A stretch of 64,000 bases of DNA from Akkermansia muciniphila (GCA_945890645.1 CAMDCV010000002.1:1-64000); one strand, 5' to 3'; shown: positions 55,964-64,000, counted from the first letter of the stretch. Translations and numbers: made by a program. The notes: a model not told the origin generated them from the letters alone.

Positions 55964-57121
55964 ATGAGTAACCAGAGCCATGAATCCTCCAGCGAGCGAA
56001 TCGCGATTCTGTTCGGTAATTTGAAAGGGAATTTGGGGGATTTTGCGATATTGCAAGCGATGATTCATCAGATCACGTTGGCGTATCCGGGGCGAGGCAT
56101 TGACGTTTACGCGCATCCGCTTGTGCCGATTGATGCCATGCGTTTGGCGGGATTCCGGCGATTCAATGGCGACGTGAATTTTCCTGGTACGACTTATTAC
56201 AAAGCGGCCACTTCGTTTGAAAAGTTGCTTTTATCATCGTTTCTCCGTCGGCGGATTCAGCCACGTATGATCGAATCGTTGGCGAAGCAGGCGGAGTCGT
56301 CGTTTGCCTCGTTCGCGGCGTATGAAGCGATCTTTTTCGCTGGTGGCGATCAATGGAGTGGCAAAGAGTTAGGTTTGGCGATGTTTGGCACCTTGATGGC
56401 ATTGCAACGCATCAATCCGAATCTCTACTCGTTTCCGTTTTCACTGAAGGCGAGCATTGTCGGTCTGTATCCACCAGGTTTATTAAAATCGTATTTCTCA
56501 CGATTGAGGCAGCCGGTGATCGTGCGGGATAGTCTAACGAAAAAGATCATGGACGATCTTGGCGTGACCTGCGTGCATGGCGCGGATTGTGTGTTCTCGC
56601 TGCCTGATGCCGTGGCAGAGGTTGAGCCCGCTGCCGCAAGAGCGCGTGAGCGGGTGCTTTTCGTCGTCAAGGGCCAAGAAGAGATCCTCGCCACTGCCAT
56701 TGAGCGATTGTTAGCGCAATCCGTTAAGATCGAGTTGCTTTCGACATGCCCTCAGGAAGATGACCGCATTTTTCAACCGCTAGCGAAGCGATTTTCGATT
56801 CCTTATCATACGCCTGCGACGTGGCAGGGGGTGATTGCCGAATTTCGTGCCAGTAGTCTGATTGTCACCAATCGATTGCACGGTTTGATACTTGGTTCCA
56901 TCGCGCGAGTGCCATTGCTTCCCGTGACGGATCGCAAAAAATCGTTAGCCTTCGCTCGTGATGCCGATATGCCCCATCATGTGAAAGCTGCCACTGATGT
57001 GACCAGGGACTTGCTGGAAAATGCGTTATCGGATAAAGAACTGGTGCTTCGACAAATGCGCGCCTATCAAGAGCTTTGCCGAGCCCAACCGAACTCTCCC
57101 GTCACCCCGACCGTGTTATGA
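55964..57121 (+). CDS. Polysaccharide pyruvyl transferase-family protein
   Basis: 385 aa. Family landmarks are GNLKGNLGDFAILQAM near the N-terminus, AIFFAGGDQWSG, VIVRDSLTKKIMDDLGV and the C-terminal VTNRLHGLILGSIARVPLLPV. Members transfer pyruvate from PEP to glycan sugars or act as related glycosyltransferase-like enzymes. It heads a three-gene plus-strand operon (methyltransferase overlaps by ATGA). Context supports a surface-glycan role. Confidence 0.82.
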   Translation: MSNQSHESSSERIAILFGNLKGNLGDFAILQAMIHQITLAYPGRGIDVYAHPLVPIDAMRLAGFRRFNGDVNFPGTTYYKAATSFEKLLLSSFLRRRIQPRMIESLAKQAESSFASFAAYEAIFFAGGDQWSGKELGLAMFGTLMALQRINPNLYSFPFSLKASIVGLYPPGLLKSYFSRLRQPVIVRDSLTKKIMDDLGVTCVHGADCVFSLPDAVAEVEPAAARARERVLFVVKGQEEILATAIERLLAQSVKIELLSTCPQEDDRIFQPLAKRFSIPYHTPATWQGVIAEFRASSLIVTNRLHGLILGSIARVPLLPVTDRKKSLAFARDADMPHHVKAATDVTRDLLENALSDKELVLRQMRAYQELCRAQPNSPVTPTVL

Positions 57122-57834
57122 ACTGTCCCGTCTGTGAATGCCCGAAACACGCATCGATCGCCACCAAAAATGGCTATGCGATTCATCGCTGTGAAGAGTG
57201 CAGCGTTCTTTTCATTCATCCTTTTCCTTCCGCGCAAGAGTTGTTTGATTTTTACAACAACTACCACAAGTCCAAGCAGTACAAGGACAAGATGCAATCG
57301 AAAATCAAAAGGGCGCGCAGCCGTATTGCTTCGTTGCGACGTAGTGGCGATCTTGCGTTTCTGGATGTCGGTTGCAATCTCGGTTTTGCGACTGAGGCAG
57401 GGCGCATGCTGGGCTACCGCGCGACCGGAATCGATGTCGATGCCGATGCCGTGGAGCGTGCTCAAAAGCATTTTCCTGGAGCATCGTTTCGCGCCGTGGG
57501 GATCGAAGTGCTCGCGGCCGAAGGGCAAAAATTCGACGTGATTTATTGCAGTGAAGTCATTGAGCATTTGGTGAATCCGTATGAATTTCTGTGTTCGATC
57601 CGCGCCGTTATGGCGGAGGATGCCGTATTATTTCTCACCACACCCGACGTGGGCCACTTCTCATTGCCGAAGAAGATCGATAAACTGGTCGAGTGGACAA
57701 CCTTCCGTCCACCTGAGCATTTGATTTATTTCGATAAACATTCCCTTGGGCTTCTGTTTAAGCGCGCAGGCTTTGATTCGGCGAAATTTCGTTTCGGCTT
57801 CAAGCCTACGCTCAAAGTCGTTGCAAAACCGTAA
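57118..57834 (+). CDS. Class I SAM methyltransferase with N-terminal zinc ribbon
   Basis: 238 aa from the ATG at 57118, coupled by an ATGA overlap to the pyruvyltransferase. N-terminal CPVC...CEEC zinc-binding knuckles, then the SAM core: FLDVGCNLGFATEAGRMLGYRATGIDVDADAVERA (motif I and acidic post-I) and FDVIYCSEVIEHLVNPYEFL. This design is common in methyltransferases of capsule and O-antigen clusters. Confidence 0.87.
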   Translation: MNCPVCECPKHASIATKNGYAIHRCEECSVLFIHPFPSAQELFDFYNNYHKSKQYKDKMQSKIKRARSRIASLRRSGDLAFLDVGCNLGFATEAGRMLGYRATGIDVDADAVERAQKHFPGASFRAVGIEVLAAEGQKFDVIYCSEVIEHLVNPYEFLCSIRAVMAEDAVLFLTTPDVGHFSLPKKIDKLVEWTTFRPPEHLIYFDKHSLGLLFKRAGFDSAKFRFGFKPTLKVVAKP

Positions 57835-57836
57835 CA

Positions 57837-58538
57837 ATGGAAAATTTTTTTCGAGATCGATACTTCGGCGACCTTGCGAAGTTAAGCCGCTTGCGCAGCG
57901 TGTTGCGTGAAACGATTGCAGGGCGCAGCTGCATCGTCATTGGTTCCGCACCGGATCCCATCGTTCCGGTGATTGAGAACGCTTGTCATTTTTGTGTGAA
58001 TGGTTCGGTGCATTCGGCGGACAAGTATTTTCATGTGACTCCCGATGCGACATTTCTCAATGGTGCCATTTTTAACGATGCGGATTCCTATGCCGAGGCC
58101 ACGGTGGGTGTGCTGCGGGACAAGCGCCTGGGGATCGTGCTAGTATCGCGCAATGCCTACCATTGCTGCTCGACAGTGCTGCAAGAAATCGGTGCATCGG
58201 CTAAGGAATGCTTCCCGATTTCCAAGTATGATAAACGTTTGATCATCGGTGAGGCCATGGGTCATCAATGGTGGGGTGCTTATCCCATCGATGCAAATGT
58301 CTCCAATGGATTATTCATGGCAGTAGTCGCATTGTGGGCCGGTGCGAAGGAAGTGATTCTTGTGGGATTTTCTTTTAACAGTCGTCACGAATACACAACG
58401 GCCAGTCAGCAACTTTCCGTGCGCGGGCACTTGCTAGAGGATAGTAAATTTCTTGAATTCATCGCAGCGGGGCAGTTGCCATTTGCCACGACGTCTGCGG
58501 AGATTCATGAAAAATTTGGCATCACCTTACGTGCCTGA
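57837..58538 (+). CDS. Putative GT42/DUF115-like glycosyltransferase
   Basis: 233 aa, 2 nt after the methyltransferase. SCIVIGSAPDP, CHFCVNGSVHSADKYFHVTPDATF and VSNGLFMAVVALWAGAKEVILVGFSF follow the order seen in GT42 sialyltransferases and DUF115 proteins (nucleotide-sugar loop, RN-type motif, late GFxF strand). The match is weak by eye and no catalytic residue is certain. Surface-glycan context fits. It converges on the sulfotransferase gene with 9 nt between stops. Confidence 0.45.
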   Translation: MENFFRDRYFGDLAKLSRLRSVLRETIAGRSCIVIGSAPDPIVPVIENACHFCVNGSVHSADKYFHVTPDATFLNGAIFNDADSYAEATVGVLRDKRLGIVLVSRNAYHCCSTVLQEIGASAKECFPISKYDKRLIIGEAMGHQWWGAYPIDANVSNGLFMAVVALWAGAKEVILVGFSFNSRHEYTTASQQLSVRGHLLEDSKFLEFIAAGQLPFATTSAEIHEKFGITLRA

Positions 58539-58547
58539 TTTTTTCCG

Positions 58548-59333
58548 TTAGACATTTTCGTATTCTGCATTGATGGCATTGTAGAGTTGGATGTCTTTCG
58601 AAATCAGGGCTTCCAAGAGCGCTTGATCGTAGTCTTCTCCAGCGATGGCGGGCACTTTCTCGGTTTTGTTTTTCCATACAGTGGATGCGGAGGCGCCGAG
58701 TTTTGCGGATAGCTGTTGGGCGAAAAGGTCCATGCGTTCCATGGTTCCGTAGTGGAAATAATTGGCTTTCAGAAACTCGTAAGGATCTGCCACCGCGGCA
58801 CCTCCGGTAACGTATCCGACGAGTGGATTGGCAAAGCGATCACCTTGCGCGTGAAGGTATTGAATATAGTCGCCGAAGCTCCCTTTGCCCGCCACTTTCA
58901 GACGACCGGCGAGATGCCATCGTCTCCACGCGGGGCGCTGGAAATAGCTTTGGCGGCAATAACGGTACTCGGAATACAAACGACTGATCGGCTCACGCAC
59001 CATGGTGATGTAGCGCAAATCCCAGTCGGGCAGAACGGGGGTGCCGTGCATGAAATGTCCAGAAACGATATCGCCCTTGCGCGCTGTGGCATTCAGAATC
59101 TCCCAAGCTTTGGGATAGCTGAGAGTTTGAAATACTTTGCGCAAACGTTTTTTCGTGCGACGAATGCGTCGGAAATCTTCGAAAGAATCCACGCCCATAT
59201 CAGCGGGTGGGGGGATGGGCGGCATGGCAAAAATTTTGCTTTGCGGAAGTGCGGTAGTGATCATTTCCACCAGCGACTGACTACCGGATTTCCGAATCCG
59301 CACCAGTGCGTAAAGATAGGGTTTATTGCTCAT
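58548..59333 (-). CDS. Sulfotransferase-family protein (copy 2, last gene of the glycan operon)
   Basis: 261 aa from the ATG at 59333. The PAPS 5'-phosphosulfate loop reads VRIRKSGSQSL near the N-terminus, and the 3'-phosphate motif reads MVREPISRLYSEYRY (about 124-138). SGHFMHGTPV precedes it. This matches the sulfotransferase-2 / heparan-type fold. It would sulfate a surface glycan using PAPS in the cytoplasm. Separated from the ELM1 gene upstream by about 35 nt. Confidence 0.75.
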   Translation of the reverse strand: MSNKPYLYALVRIRKSGSQSLVEMITTALPQSKIFAMPPIPPPADMGVDSFEDFRRIRRTKKRLRKVFQTLSYPKAWEILNATARKGDIVSGHFMHGTPVLPDWDLRYITMVREPISRLYSEYRYCRQSYFQRPAWRRWHLAGRLKVAGKGSFGDYIQYLHAQGDRFANPLVGYVTGGAAVADPYEFLKANYFHYGTMERMDLFAQQLSAKLGASASTVWKNKTEKVPAIAGEDYDQALLEALISKDIQLYNAINAEYENV

Positions 59334-59367
59334 GAGATAGGGTGGTGATTCGTAGTGTGAGGAAAAT

Positions 59368-60369
59368 TTATGCGCCGCGAGAGTAAGCATTCAGCACCGC
59401 TTGTGCAAGACCTTGGCTGGGGTCGCTGGTGATGAGTTGCCAACCATCCGCGGGTGAAGTATCGGATTTTGTTAGGTCAGAAATGTTCTGCAGCACGATG
59501 TGTCGGGAAGATTCCAAGTGCGATAAATTATTCATCAAGCGCGAGTTTCCTCCCGTTGAGGGAAGGATGACAATGACCGGGCGACCTGAAGAAATCGCTT
59601 CATGCGTCATCGACATGCTATCGGCCGTCACATACAACCATGAACACGCTCCCATCATCGCCAACAGCGAGGGCGCAGAAGCCTCACGTTGATGATACCA
59701 GCAGGACTCGGATAAAATGCCAGCGTCCTGAAACAAGGCGCGTAAGGTTGTTTCGACTTGGGGAGGAGTTCTTCGCGATGTAGCGATGCGCACTTTCACA
59801 CCTTGTCGTTTTGCAGCGGCGATGAATTTCTCTGCGATTGATCGATAGTCTGCTTCCGTCCAATGGATGTCTTCGCCATCGCCACCAATCAACAGTCCCC
59901 AGGTGGTCGAATCGTTGAGATGCGCAAGCTGCGCGGCTTCTTGCGCGGCAGCGGGTGTCACCATCGACGGGATGATGTCAAAGCGGTAATACGGTGCGGT
60001 TTGCGACGGTGCATCGTGAAAAGCGATTAATGAAAAACACTCGGGTTTCAGTTGGCGAGGAGAACCTAGGAAAACATTCGCTTTTCCCGATTGAATCGCC
60101 ATCGCCGCATTCGGCCATTGGGTCGAACCACCGGCGGATAAGATCAAAGAAATATCGGTTAGATCTGGAAAATTTTTAAGGAACCAGCGAATCGGAAGTC
60201 GCAATCCTAGTTCGCCAAGAATGGAAAGAATCGCACGGATGCCGGACCAACGCCAACGGACTTCGTATTCCACAATTTCAATCGCCCTTTGATCAGAAAT
60301 CGCTCGCAGCAAACCCTTGGCTTTGTGCAGGTGACCGGTTTTCGAATCCTTGAGCCAGAGAATTTTCAT
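59368..60369 (-). CDS. ELM1/GtrOC1-family protein (copy 2)
   Basis: 333 aa from the ATG at 60369. Starts KILWLKDSKTGHLHKAKGLLRAI and ends with YVTADSMSMTHEAISSGRPVIVILP, the start and end signatures of the mitochondrial-fission-ELM1 family, with a GT-B-like layout. In bacteria these genes sit among LPS and capsule glycosyltransferases; the reaction is not established. Four nt after the sulfotransferase stop. Confidence 0.8.
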   Translation of the reverse strand: MKILWLKDSKTGHLHKAKGLLRAISDQRAIEIVEYEVRWRWSGIRAILSILGELGLRLPIRWFLKNFPDLTDISLILSAGGSTQWPNAAMAIQSGKANVFLGSPRQLKPECFSLIAFHDAPSQTAPYYRFDIIPSMVTPAAAQEAAQLAHLNDSTTWGLLIGGDGEDIHWTEADYRSIAEKFIAAAKRQGVKVRIATSRRTPPQVETTLRALFQDAGILSESCWYHQREASAPSLLAMMGACSWLYVTADSMSMTHEAISSGRPVIVILPSTGGNSRLMNNLSHLESSRHIVLQNISDLTKSDTSPADGWQLITSDPSQGLAQAVLNAYSRGA

Positions 60370-60373
60370 GGCC

Positions 60374-61078
60374 TTACTGGGCTTGTGGATCAAACACGTA
60401 ACCCATCAGGCGGATTTCGCGGGCAAATTCTTGCGCCACTTTTTCACGAGTTTCGTCATCGTAAAATTCGCGGTAATCGACTTTTTGTTGCGTGATGTTG
60501 GTTTTTTCGCGTGGCATTTCTCCATGGAATGGAACCTGAAGTTTTTCGCAGAGAGCATTGAATCGAGGAATGAATTGATCGTATTCCAGAACCTCATCCA
60601 TCAAGCATTTGTCGCCCTCAAAGTAGAGTGACGCATCGAGAGGTAAGCGGTGGGTTTTTTGCATCACCCACGTTTTGAATGACGGCATTGGTTTGCTCTG
60701 ACCGAATTTTTTCCAGTTATAGTAGGAAACGACTTTGTCCCACGGATTGCGCTCGAAGCAGAACTTGTGATAGCTGTTCCATGTCTCCTCTCCGATCAAT
60801 TCGCGCACCCGCCATGCGGGCATGTGCTCGTAAAACCATTTCCCTAATAGGGGAGAGTGTCGGTCGATGACTTTGCGTGCCCAGCGCGAACGGGCGTAGG
60901 TGCGACCGAGAAAATTTTCCTCATGGTAGTGGCGAGGGATGCCGCTATCGACGTTCGACTCCATCGGCGTGATGATGTCGTCTGGTCCGCAAAGTGGACC
61001 CAGCGCCATTTCCATGCTGCTGCCAGCGGTCTTATGCGTCTTGATGAAAATAAATTTATGCCGATGGCTTACAATCAT
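60374..61078 (-). CDS. Sulfotransferase-family protein (copy 1)
   Basis: 234 aa. The PAPS loop FIKTHKTAGSSMEMAL is near the N-terminus (residues 11-26) and the 3'-phosphate-binding FCFERNPWDKVVSYYNW follows at about 106-122, typical of the sulfotransferase-2 family. The middle of the operon, 18 nt after the GT4 gene, implies sulfation of the glycan built by its neighbours. It is not closely alike to copy 2. Confidence 0.82.
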   Translation of the reverse strand: MIVSHRHKFIFIKTHKTAGSSMEMALGPLCGPDDIITPMESNVDSGIPRHYHEENFLGRTYARSRWARKVIDRHSPLLGKWFYEHMPAWRVRELIGEETWNSYHKFCFERNPWDKVVSYYNWKKFGQSKPMPSFKTWVMQKTHRLPLDASLYFEGDKCLMDEVLEYDQFIPRFNALCEKLQVPFHGEMPREKTNITQQKVDYREFYDDETREKVAQEFAREIRLMGYVFDPQAQ

Positions 61079-61096
61079 GGGAGTGGGCGAAAGGGT

Positions 61097-62203
61097 TCAA
61101 ACAGGACGATGCAAATCAAGATAAATTTCCAGCGTGGCGTCGAGCATTTTACTCAAGGCGAAAGGAGCGACCGATCCGGGAGTGCCGCCCTGTTTCAACA
61201 GGTGCAAGGTGGTGGCTTCGGCGGCATCGATATCGCCGACGGGCACAAGACCAGAGGGAAAGACGACTCGCAATTGCTCCGCAACGCCACCGTGGTCATA
61301 TCCGATGACAGGTTTTCCCAAGGCCATCGCTTCGAGGGATACGCGTCCAAATGCTTCGGGATCGAGCGAGAGAGAATAGACGATGGATGAGATCGCCATC
61401 ACATCGCGCAGGTCTGACCGATGACCCAGAAAACTGATGTGTGCCTCGATGTCGAGAGTGCGTGTAAGTTGTTTCAACTCATCGAGAAAAGCGAGCTTTT
61501 TGGGATGAGGTTCGCCCGCGATGAGACCATGAACCGGTAGGCCTTGTTCGATGAGTCGAGCGATCAAACGGATAAAATCTTCCTGACCCTTCCAGCGTGT
61601 GAGACGGCCTGGCAGTAACAGTGCTATGCGGCCTTCGAGTTGTGAATAAGCGGATTTCCATGCCGCTGTCCACTCGTCGGATGGTTTATAGTCGTGGGTG
61701 TAGGTGTGATCATTCACACCACGATGGATCACACGAATGATCCCGGGATTGGTTTTGGGATAATTTTTGAGGATGTATTCGCGCACACTTTCCGAGACGG
61801 CGATCACGCGTTCACCGCGCGTCATCACGGCGGAGTAAGCATTGACCGAATAAAAGCCGTGAACTGTGGATACGAGGTGGGGACGAGTTTGTGGATTCAT
61901 GCCACGCCAAGCGAGCCATGTCAGCCAACCAGGGGCCCGTGAACGGATGTGTACGATGTCGGGCTTTTCCTTTTCGAACAGAGCCCGTAGTTTACCGACT
62001 TGCAAAAGCGAGCTCAGCGCTTTGCGGTGAACAGGCAGAGCAATGTGCCGTGCGCCCAATGCTTCTAGTTCGCCCACGAGTCGCCCGCCATTTGAAATAA
62101 CGACCGCTTCGTGACCATGGGAGATCAGGTGAGAGGCGACTTCCAAAGTACCGCGTTCGACGCCGCCGGCGTTGAGTTCGGGTAAGATCTGAATGACTTT
62201 CAC
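61097..62203 (-). CDS. Glycosyltransferase family 4
   Basis: 368 aa from a GTG at 62203 that overlaps the ELM1 stop (GTGA). GT-B fold: N-terminal ILPELNAGGVERGTLEVASHL (GG(V/A)E donor loop), LLPGRLTRWKGQEDFIRL and the EX7E motif in PEAFGRVSLEAMALGKPVIGYDHGGVAE. Adds a sugar from a nucleotide donor to a lipid-linked or surface glycan. The closest analogues are LPS core or O-antigen enzymes, by context. Confidence 0.92.
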   Translation of the reverse strand: MKVIQILPELNAGGVERGTLEVASHLISHGHEAVVISNGGRLVGELEALGARHIALPVHRKALSSLLQVGKLRALFEKEKPDIVHIRSRAPGWLTWLAWRGMNPQTRPHLVSTVHGFYSVNAYSAVMTRGERVIAVSESVREYILKNYPKTNPGIIRVIHRGVNDHTYTHDYKPSDEWTAAWKSAYSQLEGRIALLLPGRLTRWKGQEDFIRLIARLIEQGLPVHGLIAGEPHPKKLAFLDELKQLTRTLDIEAHISFLGHRSDLRDVMAISSIVYSLSLDPEAFGRVSLEAMALGKPVIGYDHGGVAEQLRVVFPSGLVPVGDIDAAEATTLHLLKQGGTPGSVAPFALSKMLDATLEIYLDLHRPV

Positions 62204-63105
62204 GTGGAACGATTAAAAAATTTTGCTAACAAAATTTCGGCGCAGCGATCTGCTTCGGCGAGTGGCGGTGATGCTAACAAACGCCCTGTTGCCTGCAAGT
62301 CTTTATATGTTGTGAGCTTGCCCTCGCGGCAAAGTTCGGCGACAGCATTTACGATTTTGGATGACGATTTTCGCGCGGGCATGGGCAACAAACCGACTTG
62401 AGCACCACTGCTGAGCGCTTCGTATATCATCGAAACGCTGTCGTTCGTCACCCATGCGCATTGGCTGATGCGCAGTTGTTCCGGGAGCCAATCGGGAGTA
62501 GTTTGTTGATGCGGGTGGAGCGTGGCAGGCAGATGCGAGAGTGAGTCAAGAAAACCCGCAGGACTGCGCCGTGAGTCGGTGATGTGCCAATCGAGTGATG
62601 ATTGCGCAATTACGGTCGTGATAGCCTCACGTAGAGCAACGAGGTCGATGGAAAATTCGTGCGATTCGCCGCCGATGAGGATTAGGCCTTTTAGCTCTTT
62701 TTGATGCGAGTAAACTATGCGATTGAGGGCACCAGTGGTAGGGATGACAGGGTCGGCAATGGGTTTGCCAATGAGATCATGAGTCGGCACGAGACAGGCA
62801 TCGAAACAAGACATCGGCCAACTAGGTTTCATCAACACGATGGCGCGGGCGGTGAGCCAACCACGCAGCAATAGCGCACAAAGATGCGTTCCGTGGCCCG
62901 CGGCGATGATCCAGTCGGGCTTTGGTCCTGCCAAAGCGAGTTTGCGTGCATGGAGAATTCTTTTCCAGAGTGGGACTTCGTTGAGTTCGATGACTCGACA
63001 TTCTGTATTCGTGCGACGCGCGAGCGCATCGGCGAGACCGAGGCTTTGGTTGCGATGACCGGGTTTGCCATCGGAAAGAATCAGAAGTTGCAGGGCCTTA
63101 CTCAT
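62200..63105 (-). CDS. ELM1/GtrOC1-family protein (copy 1)
   Basis: 301 aa from the ATG at 63105, coupled to the acyltransferase stop by ATGA. LLILSDGKPGHRNQSLGLADAL at the start, IIAAGHGTHLCALLL in the middle and WVTNDSVSMIYEALSSGAQVGLLPM near the end match the ELM1 family. It shares the family pattern with the copy at 59368 but is clearly diverged, so the duplication is old. Confidence 0.82.
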   Translation of the reverse strand: MSKALQLLILSDGKPGHRNQSLGLADALARRTNTECRVIELNEVPLWKRILHARKLALAGPKPDWIIAAGHGTHLCALLLRGWLTARAIVLMKPSWPMSCFDACLVPTHDLIGKPIADPVIPTTGALNRIVYSHQKELKGLILIGGESHEFSIDLVALREAITTVIAQSSLDWHITDSRRSPAGFLDSLSHLPATLHPHQQTTPDWLPEQLRISQCAWVTNDSVSMIYEALSSGAQVGLLPMPARKSSSKIVNAVAELCREGKLTTYKDLQATGRLLASPPLAEADRCAEILLAKFFNRST

Positions 63106-64000
63106 GATGAGGATTCGGGTAAGGAGCAGCCAAGTGCTCTCACATAATGCCACCAAGTGTGTGGGTCGTCCATTGCCGTCTCCGGCGGCGTGATGCGGAT
63201 ATCGAGCGAGGCATTTTTATGGTCGCACAGGCCGACAGCCATCGGGCTGGATCCGATTTTGTGATGACCCAAGGTAGCGGCATCAGGGCAGAAATATACG
63301 ACGATATCCAGCGGGTAGGATTTCGCGTCGTCCCATTGTTGCAGAACTTTACCAAGATCGGAAATTTGAGAGTCTGCGAAAGTTGCATTTTCAGCGGCAA
63401 AAGTCGGTGGTATATTGATCAGAAAAATTTCCGCATCAGGCTGCTGTCTAACAAGATGCTCGATGGCGGCGGTTGATGCTTGGGCGATGGCTGGGTCGGT
63501 CGAGCCAACGAATGCATAGCGCCATGGTTTGGTGATGCCACCACTCTCTTGCGATTGCCTTGACTGACGCAACTCAAACGGTCTCTTGATCGGCAGTTTC
63601 CAGCGGTTGTGAAACCAAAAGCCATCGCAGGGGCTGGTCGAAAGTGCTTGCTCGACGCCTTTCATCACGCTTTGGGTGGTAATTTTTATGGCAGGGTCAT
63701 GCGCGGTGATATTGATCTGCCAGTGTGCAGGGCGCGTGCGTTTGATGGATACGTAAAACACCACAGCGCCAGTTCGCCGGTGGAGCAATTCCACTAAGGG
63801 CGAGCAAGAGGTCGGCCTACCGAAAAAAGGGGTGAGGCTGCCGGAATTTCCTGCGTGTTGATCTGCGAGAATTCCGAGCATGCCACCCGCGCGCAGTAGC
63901 GTGCAGGATTGACTGAATCCTTCCTTGTTCGAATACAACTGCGTGCCGGATTGCTGCCGTCTTCGCATGGTCATGCGATTCATATACGGGTTATTCAGCG
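63102..64000 (-). CDS. LpxL/LpxM-type lipid acyltransferase with extra C-terminal domain (N-terminus cut by window edge)
   Basis: The reading frame is open to the right edge (LNNPYMNRMTMRRRQQSG precedes), so the listed Met is internal and the HX4D catalytic region lies outside. Visible: LLRAGGMLGILADQHAG, LTPFFGRPTSCSPL and the C-terminal WFHNRWK typical of lipid A late acyltransferases. Roughly 150 further residues follow, which typical LpxL lacks: strands such as RYAFVGSTDPAIAQAS and LDIVVYFCPDAATLGHHKIGSSPMAVG, faintly like the first half of a GT9 heptosyltransferase. First visible gene of the glycan operon; its stop overlaps the ELM1 start. Confidence 0.75.
   Translation of the reverse strand, partial: LNNPYMNRMTMRRRQQSGTQLYSNKEGFSQSCTLLRAGGMLGILADQHAGNSGSLTPFFGRPTSCSPLVELLHRRTGAVVFYVSIKRTRPAHWQINITAHDPAIKITTQSVMKGVEQALSTSPCDGFWFHNRWKLPIKRPFELRQSRQSQESGGITKPWRYAFVGSTDPAIAQASTAAIEHLVRQQPDAEIFLINIPPTFAAENATFADSQISDLGKVLQQWDDAKSYPLDIVVYFCPDAATLGHHKIGSSPMAVGLCDHKNASLDIRITPPETAMDDPHTWWHYVRALGCSLPESSS

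Follow-up and report, generated by a model that had tools for sequence, protein, structure and literature searches.

KdoT of Acinetobacter baumannii, a protein of the ELM1 family, was reported in December 2025 to transfer a third Kdo onto Kdo2-lipid A in vitro; it is a proposed inverting GT-B enzyme that needs R180 of its SRRT motif (PMC12856342). KdoT acts just ahead of GnaT/LpsB, a GT4 enzyme that adds GlcNAcA (PMC12856342, PMC10936431) and needs E283 and E291 (PMC12856342). The lipooligosaccharide (LOS) of Akkermansia muciniphila, including that of strain ATCC BAA-835, contains three Kdo residues (PMC12527988, PMC13135019). Furthermore, PAPS-dependent sulfation of bacterial LPS is known in Sinorhizobium meliloti, from sulfotransferase work cited in PMC6192434. 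Here we describe an operon with genes predicted for functions of these kinds in an Akkermansia-related member of the Verrucomicrobiota, family Akkermansiaceae (genome of 3.82 Mb, 97.6% complete).

The window, i.e. the whole stretch of 64,000 nucleotides that was analyzed, contains six co-directional genes on the minus strand in the order ACYL, ELM1a, GT4, STa, ELM1b and STb (Table 1). Stop and start codons overlap by 4 bases where ACYL meets ELM1a (ATGA) and where ELM1a meets GT4 (GTGA), and the later junctions are short gaps. The sequence-only reading had described six packed genes in this order, and the ORF positions, strand, Pfam matches and junctions bear this out. It was also right that the operon faces pyruvyl- and methyltransferases: genes matching PS_pyruv_trans and Methyltransf_23, together with a third gene, DUFx, lie on the opposite strand, convergent with the operon. 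Since the gene order is kept in relatives, it is not due to chance. Ortholog alignments indicate that ELM1a, ELM1b and STb likely start at the ATG codons at 63105, 60369 and 59333, and not at the starts of the longest ORFs (TTG at 63156, TTG at 60393, and 59390, respectively).

Table 1. Genes of the operon and of the facing strand, with predicted functions and their basis.
Gene	Predicted function	Position	Strand	Basis
ACYL	LpxL-like late lipid A acyltransferase (C-terminal part in window)	63102..64000	-	PF03279, HX4E motif
ELM1a	KdoT-clade GT-B glycosyltransferase, predicted third-Kdo transferase	62200..63105	-	PF06258, tree, D-x4-H/HD/SRR
GT4	GnaT-like retaining glycosyltransferase, predicted addition of sugar after Kdo III	61097..62203	-	PF13439/PF00534, EX7E
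STa	Predicted PAPS-type sulfotransferase	60374..61078	-	PF03567 over cut-off, conserved motifs in five orthologs
ELM1b	Second ELM1 paralogue (subgroup B), predicted CMP-sugar transferase	59368..60369	-	PF06258, predicted GT-B, SRRT
STb	Second predicted PAPS-type sulfotransferase	58548..59333	-	PF03567 just below cut-off, ortholog matches, motifs
DUFx	GT42/MptE-like protein, possible CMP-sugar transferase	57837..58538	+	Low-confidence fold, weak CstII match
MT	SAM methyltransferase	57076..57834	+	PF13489 (Methyltransf_23), E 1e-22
PYR	Polysaccharide pyruvyltransferase	55964..57121	+	PF04230 (PS_pyruv_trans), E 5.5e-20

We estimate a probability of roughly two in three that this operon combines late lipid A acylation and LOS inner-core assembly with sulfation by STa and STb, addition of a sugar by ELM1b and decoration by the facing genes. 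The core of the operon very probably serves inner-core assembly, because ELM1a belongs to the KdoT clade, the GT4 has its catalytic glutamates at the GnaT positions, and the same pair is present in A. muciniphila with its three Kdo residues. Gene identities, motifs, clade membership and conserved linkage are direct observations, as is the presence in the host genome of genes for WaaA, CMP-sugar synthetase and PAPS synthesis (APS kinase). Each reaction in the host, as well as the position of the sulfate and the donor of ELM1b, is predicted from these, as follows. WaaA, encoded elsewhere, would make Kdo2-lipid A, to which the LpxL-like ACYL would add a secondary acyl chain. ELM1a would then move a third Kdo from CMP-Kdo, with the SRR arginines positioning the donor, and GT4 would add the sugar after it, by analogy with GnaT of A. 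baumannii. Sulfate from PAPS would be placed on core hydroxyls by STa and STb, ELM1b would add one further sugar, most probably another CMP-activated ulosonic acid, and PYR, MT and the GT42-like DUFx would decorate the same or an outer part of the core.

The first gene fits the lipid A end of this route. The ACYL fragment in the window matches Lip_A_acyltrans (PF03279) with an E value of 5e-19 and contains the catalytic HX4E motif as HMGNWE, the combination expected of an LpxL-type enzyme (PF03279 plus HX4D/E); NCBIfam LpxL models also match, with scores under their cut-offs. The gene continues past the end of the window, and the full ORF encodes 478 aa (contig C2:63102-64538; L003:5103-6539). 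Following the LpxL domain, ACYL and its orthologs have a diverging C-terminal extension of ~150 aa for which no Pfam match was found. By eye, this extension is similar to the N-terminal half of GT9 heptosyltransferases.

ELM1a matches PF06258 with an E value of 4e-57 and 194 bits, the curated cut-off being 27. In a phylogeny built from 121 ELM1 sequences (support values are SH-aLRT), it falls inside a clade of 97 members, clade A (support 100), together with the ELM1 of locus L140, which stands in for KdoT on the basis of gene order and residue positions, not of its name. That gene lies directly downstream of ilvE and is followed by core-type genes (neighbours named by eye), matching the published context of kdoT in A. 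baumannii. ELM1a retains a D-x4-H motif, HD at residues 109-110 and SRR at residues 178-180 (DSRRSP), and reads SRRS where KdoT has SRRT. Because the choice of start codon alters the residue numbering of ELM1a relative to KdoT, and the first D is shifted by four positions, only the spacing from H to R was counted; it is 70 residues, as in KdoT. Among solved structures, even the one nearest to ELM1 in sequence was no significant match. In most loci with a KdoT-clade ELM1, the next gene is a GT4 similar to that in the window, and the pair is kept across Verrucomicrobiota, Gammaproteobacteria and Planctomycetes. The window GT4 (PF13439/PF00534, E 2e-26) is predicted to be of the GnaT/LpsB type, a likeness that rests on the positions of the EX7E glutamates, E283 and E291. 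The lipid A-linked glycan pathway proposed by the sequence-only reading is well supported by an LpxL-like HX4E acyltransferase, a KdoT-clade ELM1, a GnaT-like GT4 and the presence of the ELM1-GT4 pair in A. muciniphila with its three Kdo residues; its view that no reaction is established for bacterial ELM1 proteins is outdated, as the reaction of KdoT is known (PMC12856342). A mitochondrial-fission role, as the name ELM1 might suggest, was rejected, as the fold, the motifs and the chemistry of KdoT point to glycosyl transfer.

ELM1b also matches PF06258 (E 3e-33) and shares 22% identity with ELM1a. It falls outside clade A, and hence outside the KdoT clade, in a subgroup B that it forms with 13 other sequences (14 members, support 81), some of which are gammaproteobacterial. 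ELM1a and ELM1b were considered as recent tandem duplicates, a reading that was rejected because the tree places them in separate deep groups that both include gammaproteobacterial sequences. The SRRT motif is retained in ELM1b, and its predicted model has a GT-B fold (pLDDT 89, pTM 0.85), for which Foldseek returned 137 matches at E <= 0.001, with GT-B enzymes and epimerases of GT-B fold at the top. Our literature search found no biochemistry of subgroup B or of any Verrucomicrobial ELM1. The donor of ELM1b is most likely a CMP-activated ulosonic acid, which would provide a fourth Kdo or a nonulosonic acid. A CMP-ulosonate donor for subgroup B is hinted at because the G049 homolog sits among genes for a CMP-sugar synthetase and a UDP-GlcNAc 2-epimerase; the host genome encodes three CTP_transf_3 proteins and one NeuB. 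We put forward, tentatively and with the odds against it, that ELM1b represents a second class of bacterial ELM1 that brings a different ulosonic acid, activated with CMP, to the inner core, and that STa and STb sulfate that residue or a neighbouring one.

Two further kinds of divergent ELM1 sequence were observed. A third ELM1-like group occurs in Pseudomonadales (G072, G105, G116, G178, G205, G251, G266 and G300; loci L113, L115, L116 and L117), with proteins that are mostly 370-430 aa long, and a single genome often carries two to four of the genes in a stretch of a few kb; the members inspected lack the SRR and D-x3-GH motifs. Two Akkermansiaceae loci (L080:8858-9880 and L081:9066-10115) encode a divergent ELM1 without SRR, and the next gene, of ~340 aa, has no Pfam match.

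Does the STa-ELM1b-STb module belong to the same pathway as ELM1a and GT4? It is conceivable that ELM1a and GT4 build the LOS core, and that the module is merely co-located and serves a capsule or an O-chain. Several observations fit such a separation: homologs of ELM1b are also found away from ELM1a, with the neighbours of the one in G049 including a Capsule_synth protein; a close STa homolog (G021:C7) adjoins neither an ELM1 nor a GT4; and in locus L011, STb faces PYR-MT-DUFx, with ELM1b absent. However, STa lies directly between GT4 and ELM1b in five genomes of the host's genus (G000, G003, G004, G006 and G009) and in one of another genus (G620), and the gammaproteobacterial genes of subgroup B have ELM1a, GT4 and either a polysaccharide deacetylase or another GT4 in their vicinity, in ELM1a-GT4-deacetylase-GT4 loci that resemble core loci. 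We therefore consider mere co-location unlikely. The pairing of ELM1 and sulfotransferase genes, for which the sequence-only reading had called for a survey of adjacency, is real in the case of ELM1b: the arrangement of GT4-STa-ELM1b-STb opposite DUFx-MT-PYR is found again in G009 (same genus) and in G620 (another genus of the same family). Since the module recurs in a second genus, the sulfotransferases would belong to the pathway. In loci L005 and L006, another gene replaces STb (in L006, one for a hexapeptide-type acetyltransferase), and a pyruvyltransferase gene faces it. G620 also carries, on another contig, a second, rearranged cassette (L178:2232-5834, G620:C100) with ELM1b-like, STb-like and STa genes and a gene of 239 aa.

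A second question is whether ELM1a transfers Kdo. Clade A is broad, with 97 sequences and an identity of ELM1a to the KdoT stand-in of 34% (E 1e-46), and SRR is present in 85 of its members (and in 14/14 of subgroup B), the exact motif being missing in 12. Thus, KdoT might represent one specificity inside clade A, and ELM1a might move another sugar in the host. Two observations argue against this. Firstly, a distant homolog from Rickettsia gives partial complementation of kdoT (PMC12856342). Secondly, A. muciniphila encodes a single ELM1, and its LOS contains just the third Kdo that is predicted. In G455, which we take to be the A. muciniphila type strain because its Amuc_1100 is 100% identical to the Amuc_1100 query sequence (which itself matches the PDB entries for this protein), the sole ELM1 locus contains one ELM1 directly followed by a GT4 with E283 and E291, and exactly one ELM1 is present in all 17 genomes examined of its genus. 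Given this single ELM1-GT4 pair, the three Kdo residues of A. muciniphila LOS are the expected product of a KdoT. We found no paper connecting a KdoT-type ELM1 with these residues, and PMC12856342 does not mention Akkermansia. Transfer of another sugar by ELM1a is thus quite unlikely, and we strongly infer that ELM1a adds a third Kdo from CMP-Kdo.

STa matches Sulfotransfer_2 (PF03567) with an E value of 1.4e-4 and 22.5 bits, just over the cut-off of 22, and it was the sole PF03567 match returned by a genome-wide search of the host. STb scores under this cut-off (E 5e-4, 20.7 bits), and 3/3 of its orthologs match the family at E <= 0.01. The STa motifs IKTHKTAGSS and ERNPW-x-KVVSYY are invariant in five orthologs, and STb contains RIRKSGSQSL and VRxPxxRLxSEY. 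That STa and STb are not PAPS sulfotransferases, so that diverged relatives with another transfer or a regulatory role would leave the core unsulfated, is very unlikely: their scores lie at or just under the cut-off, and profile searches of solved structures gave no significant match (for STb, insignificant matches to heparan sulfotransferases only), but 5'-PSB-like and 3'-PB-like motifs are kept in all aligned orthologs of both proteins and an APS kinase is encoded in the genome. STa and STb are predicted to sulfate the LOS core. STa matches are present in 17 of the 335 genomes of the class, with the close ones confined to the host's own family; a literature search for a sulfated LPS core with Kdo, or for sulfated LPS in Verrucomicrobia, found nothing directly relevant.

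DUFx has no Pfam match. The top fold match of its low-confidence model (pLDDT 59) is the Campylobacter sialyltransferase CstII of family GT42, a CMP-sugar transferase (E 1.3e-3), and the sequence match to CstII is weak and not significant. With DUFx, the locus may encode three CMP-sugar transferases. It adjoins PYR and MT in every locus in which it was seen.

The presence of an ELM1a-GT4 pair in these bacteria would mean that the KdoT/GnaT route occurs beyond the Proteobacteria, in Akkermansia and related bacteria, and offers an explanation at the gene level for the three Kdo measured in A. muciniphila LOS. A second ELM1 subgroup linked to sulfotransferases would predict sulfated inner-core LOS. 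If our view of ELM1b and the sulfotransferases is true, the host would make a sulfated, ulosonic-acid-rich and pyruvylated LOS core; to our knowledge, no described lipooligosaccharide has one. We also know of no ELM1 linked to LPS sulfation in S. meliloti, which resembles the proposed system in being PAPS-dependent LPS sulfation in a bacterium (PMC6192434). As to the LOS core of A. muciniphila, this species belongs to the same family and has a single KdoT-clade ELM1 followed by a GT4. However, its genus contains neither ELM1b nor a close relative of STa, and for its LOS phosphate is reported, and sulfate is not, in the available parts of the sources (PMC13135019, PMC12527988). The KdoT/GnaT system of A. 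baumannii shares with our locus an ELM1 with HD and SRR, a GT4 with the EX7E glutamates E283 and E291, and the predicted substrate Kdo2-lipid A (PMC12856342, PMC10936431). On the other hand, kdoT lies in the ilvE-aspS locus of A. baumannii, with lpsB/gnaT elsewhere and no sulfotransferase described (PMC12856342, PMC10936431), whereas in the window ELM1a and GT4 are neighbours and share their operon with an LpxL-like gene, another ELM1 and a pair of sulfotransferase genes. The sequence-only reading had proposed an undescribed system, which goes too far; the frame is that of a known type of pathway, and the second ELM1 and the two sulfotransferases are new. The locus is best read as an LOS inner-core operon based on a KdoT/GnaT pair, to which ELM1b, STa and STb have been added in one branch of the Akkermansiaceae.
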